Position numbers and translations under genes: made by a program. Positions 30,403 through 37,928 of a stretch of 64,000 nucleotides of DNA are shown here, piece by piece. The notes below the pieces were generated by a model, which did no database searches, was not told the DNA's origin, and saw only the letters and a program-made list of their open reading frames with translations. This stretch comes from Marinomonas sp. SBI8L (GTDB lineage: Bacteria > Pseudomonadota > Gammaproteobacteria > Pseudomonadales > Marinomonadaceae): NCBI RefSeq assembly GCF_001624705.1, contig NZ_JSEO01000002.1, forward strand, positions 310,001-374,000, written 5' to 3'. Positions within the stretch are counted from its first letter, which is position 1. Each line of letters opens with the position of its first letter.

Positions 30403-32463
30403 ATGAAGATAATCCAAAGTTTTTTAAATGGCCAATGGATAGGTGAAGAAAAGAAGAGCGCATTAAAAAGTGCCATTAATGGTGATGTAATTGGTTATAT
30501 CCATGCCGAGCGGCCTGATTTCGAAGAAGCAACTGACTACGCAAGAAAAAAAGGCCAAGCGTCATTAATGCATATGGATTTTCAGCAAAGAGCTACCTGT
30601 CTTAGAAATCTCGCCAAGTACCTACTAGAGCATAAAGAGTCACTCTATTTATTATCTCGTGAAACTGGTGCAACACGTGGCGATAGCTGGATAGATATTG
30701 AAGGTGGTTTCGGTACCTTGTTCGCTTATGCCAGTATGGGGAGAAATCAGCTTCCATCAGGCAACCTAATTCATCAAGGAAGTGCTATGCCTTTGGGCAA
30801 AAACAATGATTTTGCAGGTACTCATATTTTAGTGCCAAAAGGTGGCGTTGCTGTACATATTAATGCATTTAACTTTCCTATCTGGGGGATGCTTGAAAAG
30901 TTTGCGCCTTGCTTCCTTGCTGGCATGCCTTGCATTGTTAAACCTGCCAGTGCAACAAGTTATTTAACTGAGGCCACGGTTCGTTTAATGAATGAATCTG
31001 GACTGCTCCCCGAGGGGGCTTTACAACTTATTATTGGTAGTACAGGAAACCTATTAGACCATCTTATCGAACAAGATGTTGTAACATTCACAGGTTCCGC
31101 ACAAACCGCTCGTCTATTAAAAAACAATGACAATATTATAAAACGTTCAATTCCATTTAATGCCGAGGCGGATTCTCTTAACGCAGCTATTCTCGCTCCA
31201 GATATTAATCTAGAAGATACTGAAATAGACTTGTTCGTTCGTGAAGTCTTTAAAGAGATGACAACAAAAGTTGGTCAAAAATGTACGGCTATCAGACGCA
31301 TAATTGTGCCAAGAGAAATTATGCCTCACGTTATCGATAAGTTAAGCCAGAAACTTGCCAAAGTGACTTACGGTGATCCTGATGTAGAAGGCGTTAGAAT
31401 GGGAGCGTTAGCATCAATTGAACAGCTTGAAGATGTTAAAGCAAAAATAGCAGAGTTACGTGAAACGAGTGAACTTGTTTATTCTCAGGATGCCAAGCCT
31501 CAAGGTATTGGCTGTCAGAAAGGTGCGTTTATCTCTCCACATCTATTTGTTAATCATCAACCTTTAATCAATTGTGCAGCACATGATGTTGAAGCATTTG
31601 GTCCAGTTGCGACCATGATGCCTTACGACACAATTGATGAGGCGATTGCGATTGCAGCCTTAGGTAAAGGGAGTTTGGTAACGACGCTATGTACTAAAGA
31701 CCCAATAATAGCGGCTCAAATGATTCCACAATTAGCTGCTTTGCATGGCAGGCTGCATATTCTTGATGCGCAGGCCGCACTTGAATCGACTGGTCATGGT
31801 TCTCCTTTGCCATTTTTGAAGCACGGTGGTCCAGGGAGAGCTGGTGGAGGAGAGGAGTTAGCAGGTATTAATGCTGTATATCATTATATGCAGAAGGCCG
31901 CGATTCAAGGTTCACCAACCATGTTAAGTGCTGTTACTGGCGAATATGTAAGAGGTTCGAACATAATTGAAACTGACGTACACCCGTTTAAGCGTAGTTT
32001 TGAGTCGGTTCAAATCGGTGAGTCATTGTTGACCCATAGACGTACGGTGACCGAAGCGGACATTGTTAATTTTGGCTCCTTATCGGGTGATCACTTTTAT
32101 ATGCATTTTGATGATATTGCTGCCAAAGAATCACAATTCGGTGAGCGTATTGCTCATGGGTACTTTGTTCTATCCGCTGCTGCTGGGTTATTTGTCGACC
32201 CAGGTGTGGGCCCTGTACTTGCTAACTATGGGCTTGATAATTTGCGTTTTATTGAGCCTGTTCCAATTGGGACAACAATACGTGCAAGGCTAACGTGTAA
32301 ACGTAAAATAGACCAAGGAAAAGAGTCAAAGGACGGAAAGCCTCAAGGGGTTGTCGTTTGGGATGTACAAGTCACTGATCAAGATGATGTGCTGGTGGCG
32401 AGTTATGACATTTTAACTCTAGTGGCGAAAGAGATGAGCGAGTCAATAAATATGCATCCATAG
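30403..32463 (+). CDS. paaZ: Bifunctional oxepin-CoA hydrolase/3-oxo-5,6-dehydrosuberyl-CoA semialdehyde dehydrogenase
   Basis: PaaZ opens the oxepin ring and oxidises the resulting aldehyde. The N-terminal aldehyde dehydrogenase has E255 and the nucleophile C294 (VGQKCTAIRR), one position off the E. coli numbering. The C-terminal MaoC-type hydratase shows GSLSGDHFYMHFDD, with the Asp-His pair. At 686 residues it is the usual length. AGAGG precedes the ATG. It is the last paa gene visible; paaK and paaI do not follow it. Confidence 0.94.
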   Translation: MKIIQSFLNGQWIGEEKKSALKSAINGDVIGYIHAERPDFEEATDYARKKGQASLMHMDFQQRATCLRNLAKYLLEHKESLYLLSRETGATRGDSWIDIEGGFGTLFAYASMGRNQLPSGNLIHQGSAMPLGKNNDFAGTHILVPKGGVAVHINAFNFPIWGMLEKFAPCFLAGMPCIVKPASATSYLTEATVRLMNESGLLPEGALQLIIGSTGNLLDHLIEQDVVTFTGSAQTARLLKNNDNIIKRSIPFNAEADSLNAAILAPDINLEDTEIDLFVREVFKEMTTKVGQKCTAIRRIIVPREIMPHVIDKLSQKLAKVTYGDPDVEGVRMGALASIEQLEDVKAKIAELRETSELVYSQDAKPQGIGCQKGAFISPHLFVNHQPLINCAAHDVEAFGPVATMMPYDTIDEAIAIAALGKGSLVTTLCTKDPIIAAQMIPQLAALHGRLHILDAQAALESTGHGSPLPFLKHGGPGRAGGGEELAGINAVYHYMQKAAIQGSPTMLSAVTGEYVRGSNIIETDVHPFKRSFESVQIGESLLTHRRTVTEADIVNFGSLSGDHFYMHFDDIAAKESQFGERIAHGYFVLSAAAGLFVDPGVGPVLANYGLDNLRFIEPVPIGTTIRARLTCKRKIDQGKESKDGKPQGVVVWDVQVTDQDDVLVASYDILTLVAKEMSESINMHP

Positions 32464-32515
32464 TATCAAAGACTCAAAATTATACAGTATGGTTTCTTTA
32501 ATATTAGACGAACTG

Positions 32516-32535
32516 TACTGTATATTTATACAGTT
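32516..32535. promoter_or_regulatory. Predicted LexA (SOS) box 1
   Basis: TACTGTATATTTATACAGTT contains CTG-N10-CAG with an alternating AT spacer and matches the E. coli LexA consensus almost perfectly. It lies 53 bases after the paaZ stop, inside a slightly larger AACTGTA/TACAGTT dyad (32511-32535). The next annotated gene downstream on the plus strand is the scramblase-family gene. Confidence 0.7.
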
Positions 32536-32583
32536 ACTTTAATCCTTACATAAAAACCGCACTAAAATTTGCATTTTTTAAAG

Positions 32584-32618
32584 ATTCTGTTCATTAAATA
32601 TACTAATAAGAACAGAAT
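32584..32618. repeat. Perfect 9-bp inverted repeat between the LexA boxes
   Basis: ATTCTGTTC (32584-32592) and GAACAGAAT (32610-32618) form a perfect dyad with a 17-nt spacer, ending two bases before an ATG at 32621. The spacing is wrong for LexA. It may be an operator for another dimeric regulator or an RNA hairpin. Confidence 0.5.
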
Positions 32619-32620
32619 TA

Positions 32621-32713
32621 ATGACTTTTCTTAAAGAAATTAAAAATACCGATACTGTTTTTTTATACAGTATTTCGTTTGTATGGATAATTTCGACTCA
32701 GTCAATTCTATAA
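32621..32713 (+). CDS. Possible 30-residue hydrophobic peptide
   Basis: An ATG frame of 30 codons between the two LexA boxes. The peptide has a polar, charged first third (Lys, Glu, Asp) and then about 19 mostly hydrophobic residues (from T12 to L30), enough for one membrane span. Small SOS-controlled membrane toxins such as TisB have this size and shape. LexA box 2 lies inside the frame, there is no clear ribosome binding site, and short open frames are common by chance, so this is speculative. Confidence 0.2.
   Translation: MTFLKEIKNTDTVFLYSISFVWIISTQSIL
32653..32672. promoter_or_regulatory. Predicted LexA (SOS) box 2
   Basis: TACTGTTTTTTTATACAGTA has perfect TACTG and CAGTA arms with a 10-base AT spacer, equal in quality to boxes such as that of umuDC. 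Its centre is 137 bp from box 1 and it lies 117 bp before the GTG start of the scramblase-family gene. A GATAAT-like -10 at 32685-32690 would place the box over the -35 region. Confidence 0.72.
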
Positions 32714-32757
32714 TTCGAATTACTTATTCAAGATCAATCTCTTGGTGAATGTGATAA

Positions 32758-32789
32758 ATTGATACTTTAAAAATTAATAGGGTATCAAT
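32758..32789 (+). promoter_or_regulatory. Hairpin over the scramblase translation start
   Basis: ATTGATAC (32758-32765) pairs with GTATCAAT (32782-32789), an 8-bp stem with a 16-nt loop. The right arm ends one base before the GTG start codon at 32790 and overlaps the AGGG ribosome binding site at 32779-32782, so folding should hinder translation. It could equally be a DNA operator. Confidence 0.45.
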
Positions 32790-33377
32790 GTGAGTCAGGT
32801 AATTAATAAAAATCTTTTTTTAGTCAAAGAACATATAGGCTTATTCAAAGCGGCTAATAACTTTGATATTTATGATCCTGAGAATGGCGAATTGATCATG
32901 GAGTGTCGCGAGCCTAACTTAGGCTGGATTACTAAATTATTACGTTTTACTGATTATAAAAGGATGACTCCTTTTGATGTGCAAATCAGAACGCCTGATG
33001 ATCAAAGAGTCGTCCGCATCACCCGTGGCATCTCCTTCTTTTTATCTAAAGTTGAAGTAAGAGATGAAAACAATGAACTAATAGGTGGATTTAAGCAGAA
33101 GTTTTTATCCATTGGTGGTCGCTTTGATGTTCTTGATAAACAAGATAACGTGATTTGTACTTTATCTGGAAAATGGACTGGTTGGGACTTTTACTTTAAA
33201 CGTGATGATCAAGAATTTGCTCATGTATCAAAAAAATGGGCTGGGATTGGACAAGAGCTTTTTTCAAGTGCAGATAATTACATACTAAAAATAGCAGAGG
33301 AAATAGAAGCAGATCATGACGTGAGAAAGCTAATTCTAGCTGCTGTTATGTGTATAGATATGGTTCTAAAAGAATAA
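32790..33377 (+). CDS. Phospholipid scramblase-family (LURP-one-related) protein
   Basis: A 195-residue protein resembling the scramblase/Tubby-like superfamily: repeated beta-strand pairs (NNFDIYDPENGELI, IRTPDDQRVVRI, VEVRDENNELIGG) and a C-terminal motif KKWAGIGQELFSSADNY with a final hydrophobic helix (about residues 175-195). Bacterial members have no established function; eukaryotic ones are named for lipid scrambling. It starts with GTG after AGGG. Two LexA boxes and several dyads lie upstream, so DNA-damage control is possible. Family call by motif memory; no search was run. Confidence 0.72.
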   Translation: MSQVINKNLFLVKEHIGLFKAANNFDIYDPENGELIMECREPNLGWITKLLRFTDYKRMTPFDVQIRTPDDQRVVRITRGISFFLSKVEVRDENNELIGGFKQKFLSIGGRFDVLDKQDNVICTLSGKWTGWDFYFKRDDQEFAHVSKKWAGIGQELFSSADNYILKIAEEIEADHDVRKLILAAVMCIDMVLKE

Positions 33378-33441
33378 AGGTGTTTTACAAACAGAGCCCA
33401 GTAAACAAGAATTAATGAAACCTCTAATAAAGGGTAAGCTG

Positions 33442-33756
33442 ATGAGAATAACGAAAATTTCAGACAAACAACTTCTCGTAAAACTCGCTGAGCTTAATTT
33501 TGATGATGAGGTTCAATGGTTCATAAAAGACGAAAAGTTAACTAAAAATTTTAAGTTTAGTCATTTTCAATCTGCATTTAGTTTTATGACAATGTGTGCT
33601 CTGTATTGTGAAAAGATTGATCATCACCCTGAGTGGACAAACAGTTTCAATCAAGTTGATGTTCAGTTGAGCACGCATTCAGCGAAAGGAATAACCTCAA
33701 AAGATTTTGAATTAGCCGAATATATGGACAATGCGTTTAAACACTTTTCAATTTAG
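33442..33756 (+). CDS. phhB: Pterin-4a-carbinolamine dehydratase
   Basis: A 104-residue protein with the active-site motif HHPEW in KIDHHPEWTNSFNQVDVQLSTH, as expected for pterin-4a-carbinolamine dehydratase, which regenerates the pterin cofactor of phenylalanine hydroxylase. I chose the ATG at 33442 with AGGG 7 bp upstream; the ATG at 33415 would give 113 residues. No phhA gene is nearby. In genomes without phhA such proteins may act in other pterin chemistry, including molybdopterin-related roles. Confidence 0.85.
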   Translation: MRITKISDKQLLVKLAELNFDDEVQWFIKDEKLTKNFKFSHFQSAFSFMTMCALYCEKIDHHPEWTNSFNQVDVQLSTHSAKGITSKDFELAEYMDNAFKHFSI

Positions 33757-34763: not shown

Positions 34764-35492
34764 ATGGAATCTATTGATCCGTTTTTAATCGCATTTTTGC
34801 CTAAAGAAATTCAATCAATGTTTTTCCCATTCGCAAGTGTTCAGCTTGTGTCATTACTTTTCAATTTGATACTGGGTTTTATCCTTGCGACAGGCATAGG
34901 ACTTCATTTTAGAAAGTACTCTTCAGCATTTTGTAATAGACAAGACTTCTCTCGATTATTCCCTTTGCTCATGTTGTTCGTGATTTTAATTATCACTGTT
35001 GTTAAGGCATCTCTGGCTTTGGCGTTAGGATTAGTTGGAGCCTTATCTATTGTAAGGTTTAGAACCCCAATTAAAGAGCCAGAAGAATTACTCTACTTAT
35101 TCTTGAATATAGGTATCGCGGTTGCATTAGGTGCAGGGCAAACACTCGCTGCGCTGGTTGCGTGTATTTCAACGCTAGGCTTGGTTACGCTTGCTAAAAA
35201 ACAACAAGTTAAAAGCTATGATGAAAGTGGCTTGTTCCTATCATTAAATTACCGACCTAAACTTAACTTTAACTCAGATACCTGCTTAACCAAGGTAAAA
35301 GAGACCGTACTTAAACATGTTGAACGTATGGAGATGAGGCGCTTTGATGTTGGTGAAAAACATTTTGATGCCACTTTCTTTGTATCCGTCATAGATTCAG
35401 AGCAAGTAGACTCATTAATATCTGATTTAAAGGCGCAATACCCAGAGATCAATACATCGTTACTCGAGCAACATAATATAGCAGGGGTGTAA
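34764..35492 (+). CDS. DUF4956 membrane protein
   Basis: A 242-residue protein with about four membrane helices (in the ranges 22-48, 64-84, 86-100 and 110-150) and a cytoplasmic C-terminal domain of about 90 residues with a ferredoxin-like beta-alpha look. The hallmark ALSIVRFRTPIKEPEELLYL identifies DUF4956. Members repeatedly occur with CotH-like and VTC-domain genes, exactly as here. The function is unknown; a membrane platform or channel for a polymer-making enzyme is my inference. A strong AGGAGG precedes the ATG, and cotH starts 2 bp after its stop. Confidence 0.85.
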   Translation: MESIDPFLIAFLPKEIQSMFFPFASVQLVSLLFNLILGFILATGIGLHFRKYSSAFCNRQDFSRLFPLLMLFVILIITVVKASLALALGLVGALSIVRFRTPIKEPEELLYLFLNIGIAVALGAGQTLAALVACISTLGLVTLAKKQQVKSYDESGLFLSLNYRPKLNFNSDTCLTKVKETVLKHVERMEMRRFDVGEKHFDATFFVSVIDSEQVDSLISDLKAQYPEINTSLLEQHNIAGV

Positions 35493-35494
35493 TT

Positions 35495-37198
35495 ATGAAG
35501 CTTGATAAGACGGAAAGTAAAACCTCTAAGACAGAGAAATGGTTAAGTATTATCGGCATATGCTTACTTGTTGTTTTTGTCTTGCCTTCACCTACGTTTG
35601 TGACAACAAGCCTTTTACATTTAGGTTTTGTGTCACATCATGAGTCAGCTAAAGATAAGCTAATTCAACTTGGACAAGAGTTAGCGGCTAGCCCTAAGCG
35701 TTATCTTGCTTCTGACTCAGACATGCCATTACTTAAAGTTGATGTTAGTTATCAAGATTGGCAAGTATTGGCTCAAGATAGAGCATTAGCCTTTGAAACA
35801 GGCATGATAGCCGAGAAAAGAAATATGGTTAATGGTGTCATTCATTTCAGAGGCGATGCACTTGAGCATATTGTCGGTGCAAAAAGGTGGTCCTTACGGT
35901 TTGACCTTAAAAACAACAAATCAATTCTTAATAATAGGCGTTTTGCACTACTAAGTTCCAATGTACGTATACATCAAGGACCTTACTTATTTGATCAAAC
36001 ACTTCAAAAGTCCGGCTTTGATATTGTTTCACCACAAATGAACCCAGTTAAAGTTGTAGTAAACGGAGTTAATTGGGGCGTCATGTTAATGGAAGAAACT
36101 TTCGGCCAAGACTTATTAAGTTTTAATAATAGAAAGCATGGCTTAGTGGTGAGGTTAGATATATTAAAAGAAATGACTGATAGTCAGGGAGGTATCACGC
36201 GTACTTTTCAACCCAGAGCAATACAACGTACAAGTATCTTAAGAGACCCAGAATTAAACAAACACAGAATGGTTGCCTTATCGCTGATAAGTGATTTTTT
36301 TGAAGGAAAAAGGCTAGCCAGTGATGTATTTGATTATGAAAAGTTAGGTCAATATTTAGCAACAATTGATGTTTGGTCTGCTTGGCATGCACTGAGTTGG
36401 AATAATTGGCGCAGGTATTACAACCCAATAACAGCAAAGTTAGAACCTATACAAAGTGATGTGGCAGTTACTCCAGCGAAGCACTATTGGTTAACGCAAG
36501 CTGTGAGCAAGGAGTTTCCTGTCGCTAAAAAAATGTTATCAGATGCAAAAGTAAAAGCAGCCTATGATAATGCTTTAGCAGTGATGCTAAATCAATTAAA
36601 TACCGGTGAGATGCAATCGTATCTAAAAGAAAAGCAATCAGCTCGATTAAGTAAACTCCATTATGGTATGCCATTAATTAATGACTTTGACTTTGAGATT
36701 ATGCACAAGCAAACGCATTGCCTGACATCAGGATATGAGCAAGGTGAATGTAAACGTATTTCTAAACTAGACACTCAACTTCACTTACATCTAACCCATT
36801 TTAGAGCAGTAAAGAATTGGGATTTAGCATCTAGATTTAGTTCTACAAAAAACAAGAAAGAACCGAGTTATTTAGATCTCGTAAATACCTCCCTGGAAGA
36901 CCTACACATTCACGCCATTGAAGGGATTAATCATTTAGAGTTTAAAGAAGAATTGGAAATTGATGGGCTAGAACTGCCTCTGGTATTAAAGCCTAATGAA
37001 CAGAGGCAAATAAGGATATCAAGTCACATTACCGATTTGATTTTACATGCGGCGGTTACTTCTAAAAAAATTGTGCCATTTTATTTTAAACGAGATCTAG
37101 ATCCACTAGCACCTATTCCAAGAACACCAATAAACCAAGAAAGAATAAGTGAAAAAACTTTAGAGTTTGATAACAATATTTCGATTGTTAATCGCTAG
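35495..37198 (+). CDS. CotH-like kinase family protein with one membrane anchor
   Basis: A 567-residue protein: membrane anchor at about residues 18-40, then an exported part. The CotH fold is suggested by VIHFRGDALEH, KRWSLRFDL, GVMLMEETFGQDLL and the later WNNWRRYYN ... LEPIQSDV, where the aspartate matches the metal-binding position of CotH kinases. Bacillus CotH phosphorylates spore-coat proteins. The extracytoplasmic location and the DUF4956 and VTC neighbours suggest phosphate transfer to a surface molecule. The sequence is divergent, so activity is unproven. Confidence 0.75.
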   Translation: MKLDKTESKTSKTEKWLSIIGICLLVVFVLPSPTFVTTSLLHLGFVSHHESAKDKLIQLGQELAASPKRYLASDSDMPLLKVDVSYQDWQVLAQDRALAFETGMIAEKRNMVNGVIHFRGDALEHIVGAKRWSLRFDLKNNKSILNNRRFALLSSNVRIHQGPYLFDQTLQKSGFDIVSPQMNPVKVVVNGVNWGVMLMEETFGQDLLSFNNRKHGLVVRLDILKEMTDSQGGITRTFQPRAIQRTSILRDPELNKHRMVALSLISDFFEGKRLASDVFDYEKLGQYLATIDVWSAWHALSWNNWRRYYNPITAKLEPIQSDVAVTPAKHYWLTQAVSKEFPVAKKMLSDAKVKAAYDNALAVMLNQLNTGEMQSYLKEKQSARLSKLHYGMPLINDFDFEIMHKQTHCLTSGYEQGECKRISKLDTQLHLHLTHFRAVKNWDLASRFSSTKNKKEPSYLDLVNTSLEDLHIHAIEGINHLEFKEELEIDGLELPLVLKPNEQRQIRISSHITDLILHAAVTSKKIVPFYFKRDLDPLAPIPRTPINQERISEKTLEFDNNISIVNR

Positions 37199-37244
37199 TT
37201 TATTTAATCAATCAATTAGATTAATGAAAAGAAGGATATAGGTT

Positions 37245-37928
37245 ATGGATACTAAGGATTTAAGGTTTGAAGTAAAAATTCCTGTACCACTCAATCAGCT
37301 CGAAGAGATGCTTATATGGCTTCGAATACACCCTTTGATGTTCAGGAATCGATACAAAGATAGGTACATTAATAGTCTTTATTTAGATAATCCAAGCATG
37401 TCTATATACGAAGAAAACTTAAGTGGGGTAAGTAGACGAAGAAAAGTAAGAATACGTTGGTATAAAGCACTCAATAATACCAAGAAAGCCTGTTTAGAGT
37501 TTAAGCATAGATTATCTGGAAAAGGTTATAAGCTAGCTTTTCCTATTGATTTTGATATTTTAAATTCAATTATGAGCTGGAGAGAGCATATCCAAGGAAG
37601 CTATTCACAACTAAAAGAGCTAGATAAGCAAAGTTGGGGGAACGAGCTCTCACCCATACTTATTTGCCGTTATCATCGACAATACTTTGAGAGCGCTTGC
37701 AGTTTAGTCAGAGCGACAATAGACAGTAAAATCCATGTTTATGATCAACGTAACCAACATAAACCAAATATTGAAAAGGACGTTTCCCTTGGTGAGTATG
37801 TATTGCTTGAACTCAAAGCAAGTCACGGATATGAAAAAGAACTCTCAGCTTTAATCGCAACATGTCCCCTAAGGCCATCAAGACATTCTAAGTATGTTTT
37901 AGGAGTTCGAACGCTTTTTTGGCGCTGA
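37245..37928 (+). CDS. VTC-domain (polyphosphate polymerase-like) protein
   Basis: A 227-residue stand-alone VTC domain. Charged strands that line the yeast Vtc4 catalytic tunnel have counterparts here: FEVKIPV, SLYLDN, RKVRIRWY, CLEFKHRLSGKGYK, RATIDSK and LLELK. Yeast Vtc4 makes polyphosphate from ATP. The conserved Lys, Arg and Glu positions suggest an active enzyme. It has no membrane segment of its own and would need the DUF4956 partner for membrane coupling. It starts 46 bp after the CotH-like gene. Confidence 0.82.
   Translation: MDTKDLRFEVKIPVPLNQLEEMLIWLRIHPLMFRNRYKDRYINSLYLDNPSMSIYEENLSGVSRRRKVRIRWYKALNNTKKACLEFKHRLSGKGYKLAFPIDFDILNSIMSWREHIQGSYSQLKELDKQSWGNELSPILICRYHRQYFESACSLVRATIDSKIHVYDQRNQHKPNIEKDVSLGEYVLLELKASHGYEKELSALIATCPLRPSRHSKYVLGVRTLFWR

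Follow-up and report, generated by a model that had tools for sequence, protein, structure and literature searches.

Two palindromes resembling LexA boxes precede a gene for a scramblase/LURP-one-related protein in this Marinomonas genome. They raise the question of whether LexA, and thus the SOS response, controls a gene of the scramblase family, for which such a setting would be unexpected. The locus was singled out in a sequence-only reading of the stretch analysed here (64,000 nucleotides, referred to as the window), and the features discussed below are collected in Table 1.

Table 1. Coordinates of the features at the scramblase-family locus (positions are those of the window unless stated otherwise).
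Feature	Position	Strand	Remarks
paaZ-like gene (aldehyde dehydrogenase and MaoC domains)	30403..32463	+	upstream neighbour, context marker
LexA box 1, TACTGTATATTTATACAGTT	32516..32535	.	pattern search; matrix score 27.3
Short frame across box 2	32621-32713		30 aa from ATG
LexA box 2, TACTGTTTTTTTATACAGTA	32653..32672	.	pattern search; matrix score 25.0
Candidate sigma-70 promoter, TATACA-16-GATAAT	32664..32691	+	-35 inside box 2
Leader next to start codon	32728..32789	+	47/62 positions identical to MED121
Scramblase/LURP-one-related (tubby-fold) gene	32790..33377	+	195 aa, GTG start; PF03803, 1.5e-16; predicted model
Pterin-4a-carbinolamine dehydratase gene	33415..33756	+	37 bp after scramblase gene
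MED121, short frame across box 2	L017 3834-3956		40 aa from GTG

The two boxes and the SOS sites of the genome

Both boxes were found exactly where the sequence-only reading had placed them, in a gap of 326 bp (32464-32789) bounded by the stop codon of the preceding gene (32463) and the GTG start codon at 32790. As the genes on either side are both plus-strand genes, the boxes lie upstream of the scramblase gene only, again as had been claimed. The distance to its start codon is 254 bases for box 1, which is far for an operator, and 117 bases for box 2. An additional single half-site, TTATACAGTAT, is present at 32480-32490; it has no counterpart in the alignment with Marinomonas sp. MED121 (see below).

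The core CTGT-N8-ACAG occurs at two places in the 64-kb window, and these are the two boxes. For the bare core 0.71 occurrences are expected and two were reached in 12 of 100 shuffles, so by itself it is weak evidence; genome-wide it was found 54 times against 54 in the reversed control, i.e. there is no enrichment. The extended consensus TACTGTATATNNATACAGTA, allowing up to three mismatches on both strands, matched these two boxes only. The number of matches expected in the window was 0.05 and the largest number in 100 shuffles was 1, in agreement with the earlier claim that two such boxes are unlikely to arise by chance. In the 5.19-Mb genome TACTGTATATATATACAGTA was found at 10 places with up to three mismatches, whereas the reversed pattern gave 3. 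The boxes described here account for two of the ten; others front umuDC, dinB, uvrA, yebG and topB.

The quality of the boxes was assessed, as the sequence-only reading had proposed, with a matrix derived from the SOS promoters of the genome itself. The matrix (20 positions) was built from ten other sites, chosen because they front well-known SOS genes (recA, lexA with two sites, uvrA, umuDC, dinB, yebG, ruvC, radA and topB); the two boxes were excluded. Box 1 outscored all ten reference sites and box 2 nine of them (11.1–25.5, each left out in turn), with the qualification that nine of the ten reference sites have the full core, so that the scores lean high for such sites. The third-best place in the window scored 10.5. 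No score of at least 25.0 was obtained in two Markov simulations of 8 Mb each, one with the composition of the gap and the other with that of the window. The scramblase gene is thus preceded by near-consensus LexA operators, as would be expected of a member of the LexA (SOS) regulon.

One protein with a LexA DNA-binding domain is encoded in the genome. Its residues 3-204 (of 206) align with solved LexA repressors (best match, 6.2e-82), presumably those of E. coli, and the SPNAAEEHLKAL helix is kept, as are the segments round the residues that we take to be involved in cleavage and catalysis. The genome therefore appears to contain a LexA of matching specificity. The lexA promoter carries CTGTATATAATAACAG and CTGTACAAACAACCAG, and comparable sites precede recA, radA, ruvC, uvrA, umuDC, dinB, yebG and a topoisomerase gene (the names uvrA, umuDC, dinB and ruvC are our assignments). 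The type of LexA together with the sites at core SOS genes indicates that the boxes fit an E. coli-type regulon.

Fourteen regions of the genome were fetched, and the cores in four of these (L098, L099, L100 and L102) were not counted as SOS sites. Several other sites were observed. Three LexA-like boxes share one gap on C9 (88674, 88692 and 88834; L090:1370-2152); two of them are 18 bp apart, directly before the gene of a hypothetical protein of 195 aa, whose N-terminal part includes a hydrophobic stretch and which matched no Pfam family. Both the tandem pair and this gene (72% identical) are found again in MED121, and the gene is a second candidate for SOS control. A perfect palindrome, TACTGTTTATATAAACAGTA (C45:62243-62262; L094:2744-2763), precedes a gene for an AlkZ-like DNA glycosylase and is unchanged in all letters beside the 95% identical gene of MED121. 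A near-consensus site at C35:267724-267743 (L091:2025-2044) lies about 90 bp before a radA-like gene and is identical to box 2 in its 16-base core. LexA-like sites were also seen before a gene that we take to be XRE-like, accompanied by an ImmA/IrrE-like peptidase gene (L096:2872-2891), and adjoining the gene of a 308-aa protein beside a DEAD-box helicase gene (L093:1989-2008); the 308-aa protein has a weak match to DUF6731, under the cut-off.

The gene, its product and its surroundings

The family assignment given in the sequence-only reading holds. Pfam Scramblase (PF03803) matches residues 19-192 of the protein with 60.9 bits (cut-off 25.4; 1.5e-16), and the AlphaFold2 model (mean pLDDT 83.5, pTM 0.83; pLDDT below 50 for residues 152-159) predicts a beta barrel round a C-terminal helix, as in the scramblase/LOR/tubby superfamily; the best PDB matches of the model were 1zxu and tubby domains. 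At the sequence level the best match to a solved structure was poor (E of 0.31). The further description as a putative lipid or membrane protein, like the name scramblase, is a label taken over from the family. Searches of NCBIfam, PADLOC and PHROGs gave no match for the protein. Likewise, a test for phage-defence or phage genes (PADLOC, PHROGs, phage records, viral contigs) gave no match, and none of the five stretches that matched a pattern encoded a relative. An origin from a mobile element was considered and rejected; no relative was found on phages or viral contigs, and two were found on plasmid records (Persicobacter, 57%, and Streptomyces, 22% identity).

The upstream gene is taken to be paaZ and part of a phenylacetate operon. 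The likely ribosome-binding site (AATAGGG) lies in the leader, which may also contain the core promoter. The search for a core promoter near the boxes gave no convincing candidate. Promoter-like sites were not above chance (5 found versus 5.6 expected in shuffles), and MED121 does not share the -10 of the sigma-70 candidate that overlaps box 2. The pterin dehydratase gene is possibly on the same transcript as the scramblase gene; in MED121 no such gene is present between the scramblase and acetyltransferase genes. Further downstream in the window (34764-37928) a DUF4956 protein, a 567-aa protein without Pfam match and a VTC-domain protein are clustered; this cluster is not found behind the acetyltransferase gene in MED121.

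Conservation of boxes and gene

The closest relative found was Marinomonas sp. MED121, in which the protein is 94% identical and the gene has the same place behind paaZ. Conservation of the boxes in relatives had been named as a further check, and both boxes are kept in MED121. Box 1 is identical to its counterpart TGCTGTATAAACATACAGTA at 15 of 20 positions and box 2 to TACTGTGTTTATATACAGCA at 17 of 20, each with the core intact (8/8). All 16 core bases are thus retained, versus 52% identity over the rest of 32464-32727; the chance of keeping 16/16 at that rate is about 3e-5, a figure to be taken as a guide only, since the positions depend on one another and the boxes can be favoured by the way the sequences were aligned. 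Identity was 60/117 between the boxes and 27/55 over 32673-32727. Over the whole gap without the boxes it was 57% (158/275), because the stretch beside the start codon is well kept. The boxes are 137 bp apart in this genome and 147 bp apart in MED121, corresponding to roughly 13 and 14 helical turns of 10.5 bp. The difference of about one turn would suit cooperative binding of LexA, but with two cases it proves nothing.

In the MED121 genome 12 places were within three mismatches of the consensus (0 in the reversed control), two of them being these boxes. Nine of the other 10 were compared with the query genes: eight adjoin counterparts of yebG, umuD, dinB, uvrA, topB, AlkZ and the 195-aa unknown (two places), and the ninth, L149, had no match to any query.

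The scramblase gene is present in 5 of 49 Marinomonas genomes, the genome studied here included. In all 14 Marinomonas genomes that have paaZ (68–70% identity) and lack the scramblase gene, no CTGT-N8-ACAG was found in the approximately 1.5 kb behind paaZ. The idea that the boxes are a long-standing part of the paa operon's end was rejected on this ground; together with their retention in MED121, the finding indicates that the boxes go with the gene at this place. Operators, gene and context are thus conserved together in one relative.

For the wider family, upstream regions were scanned for 64 homologue rows, three of which are the window (L012) and a single MED121 place listed twice (L013 and L017). 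None of the other 61 rows, among which L068 and L105 are one place, has such a box; all scores were below 11, with peaks of 10.6 (L016), 9.1 (L054) and 8.3 (L040). Many of these rows are from Bacteroidota, Planctomycetota and others, where the LexA motif may differ and the scan says little, and the start codon is not fixed for the distant or partial members L016, L066, L068, L103-L106 and L142. Within Marinomonas, no box scoring at least 11 was found in the 800 bp upstream of the homologues in G020 and G009 (63–65% identity) or of the distant one in G034 (29%), all in other contexts. The same holds for 15 other loci titled Gammaproteobacteria and for the scanned genomes of the class and order. 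SOS control of the family as a whole was rejected on these grounds. The absence of boxes from all other homologues scanned suggests that SOS control would be a trait of the lineage rather than of the family and, as far as seen, confined to this lineage.

The gene itself is rare among related bacteria. Among 369 genomes of the class, the protein matched in 6 and the Pfam family likewise in 6; among 390 genomes of the order, the protein matched in 5. The genome itself is counted each time, and some of the matches are distant. Yet records whose titles name Bacteroidota, Planctomycetota and Opitutales groups contain copies of about 50–69% identity, and a MAG titled Blastopirellula contains one of 74%, a distribution that points to horizontal transfer. 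An alignment of 44 members from several phyla (by record title) had a mean column identity of 72%; it comprised the window and 43 of 50 homologue loci (left out were L020, L027, L049, L051, L057, L063 and L066).

Proposed regulation and related systems

Overall, the data argue that the boxes are working LexA operators which place the gene at 32790 in the SOS regulon of this Marinomonas lineage, with a probability of about 0.83. From the sequences we infer binding of LexA to the boxes, repression, and induction, and DNA damage very likely turns on the scramblase-family gene. As long as cells are undamaged, LexA dimers would occupy both boxes and keep the gene off. Upon DNA damage, RecA filaments would trigger the self-cleavage of LexA, after which the gene would be transcribed, perhaps together with the downstream pterin dehydratase gene.

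Three other explanations were weighed. The boxes may bind LexA and yet mainly serve a small RNA, a short gene for a toxic peptide of the SOS type, or the end of the upstream operon. The large distances to the scramblase start codon would suit this, as would the presence of short open reading frames in the gap, one of which is hydrophobic, crosses box 2 in both species and has V-F-(L or I)-Y-S-I in common. These common residues are, however, the letters of box 2; by eye there is no agreement outside the box, the frames start at different places in the two species, and identity between the boxes and over 32673-32727 is far below that beside the scramblase start. Since, in addition, no Rfam family reached the gathering threshold in the window, a small RNA or peptide gene in the gap was rejected as a candidate, and the explanation as a whole is considered improbable. 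Even less probable, by about half, are the remaining two. Chance palindromes without function in AT-rich DNA would be in line with the figures for the bare core (54 versus 54, and two in 12 of 100 shuffles) but not with the enrichment of extended sites (10 versus 3 here, 12 versus 0 in MED121), with scores like those of the best SOS sites, or with the fact that both boxes persist in MED121 and differ there only outside the core. Use of the boxes by another regulator with a similar palindrome, such as an XRE or phage-type repressor, is brought to mind by the XRE-like and ImmA/IrrE-like peptidase genes that follow such a site in this genome; against it, the matrix derives from core SOS promoters and the LexA DNA-binding domain is found in a single protein.

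Full-text searches (most subscription papers are outside their reach) found no paper combining LexA, SOS and scramblase, and among the matches listed for scramblase/LURP-one/tubby proteins in bacteria and for LexA regulons, Marinomonas and membrane lipids there was no such link. The words 'scramblase', 'Marinomonas' and 'lipid' are absent from the main text of a cited SOS paper. Among the predicted LexA boxes given in part of a study on Shewanella LexA is that of a patatin gene, whose row shows a dash in place of the values given for others (PMC4471891). Published predictions of this kind make accessory SOS genes a known phenomenon; one of the scramblase family was not found in the literature searched.

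Under LexA control of the 32790 gene, DNA damage can be named as a likely condition for expression of a bacterial scramblase/LOR-family gene, which offers a handle on the function of this well-conserved bacterial family, and the SOS regulon would, in a single lineage, have gained a gene of patchy distribution. Very tentatively, the product may be a soluble or membrane-attached tubby-like barrel that is at the inner membrane during the SOS period, where it might act, for instance, on lipids while division is halted. It is a long shot that DNA damage would elicit a dedicated membrane-lipid response via a scramblase-fold protein, as a bacterial parallel to scrambling in damaged eukaryotic cells, with SOS control recruited after horizontal arrival of the gene.

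The proposed role resembles that of accessory SOS genes whose products work at the membrane or affect division. TisB is an SOS-controlled membrane protein, and SulA and Caulobacter SidA are division inhibitors; to our knowledge, these small peptides and division inhibitors are unrelated to the present protein in sequence or fold. Arabidopsis At5g01750 (PDB 1zxu) shares PF03803 with the protein at 16–18% identity, the protein described here being bacterial. With the LexA/SOS regulon of Gammaproteobacteria (E. coli type) the system shares the kind of repressor, the 20-bp operator and the core targets recA, lexA, uvrA, umuDC, dinB, ruvC and yebG. It differs in that the operators end 254 and 117 bases ahead of the start codon and that the target is a gene of the scramblase/LOR family.
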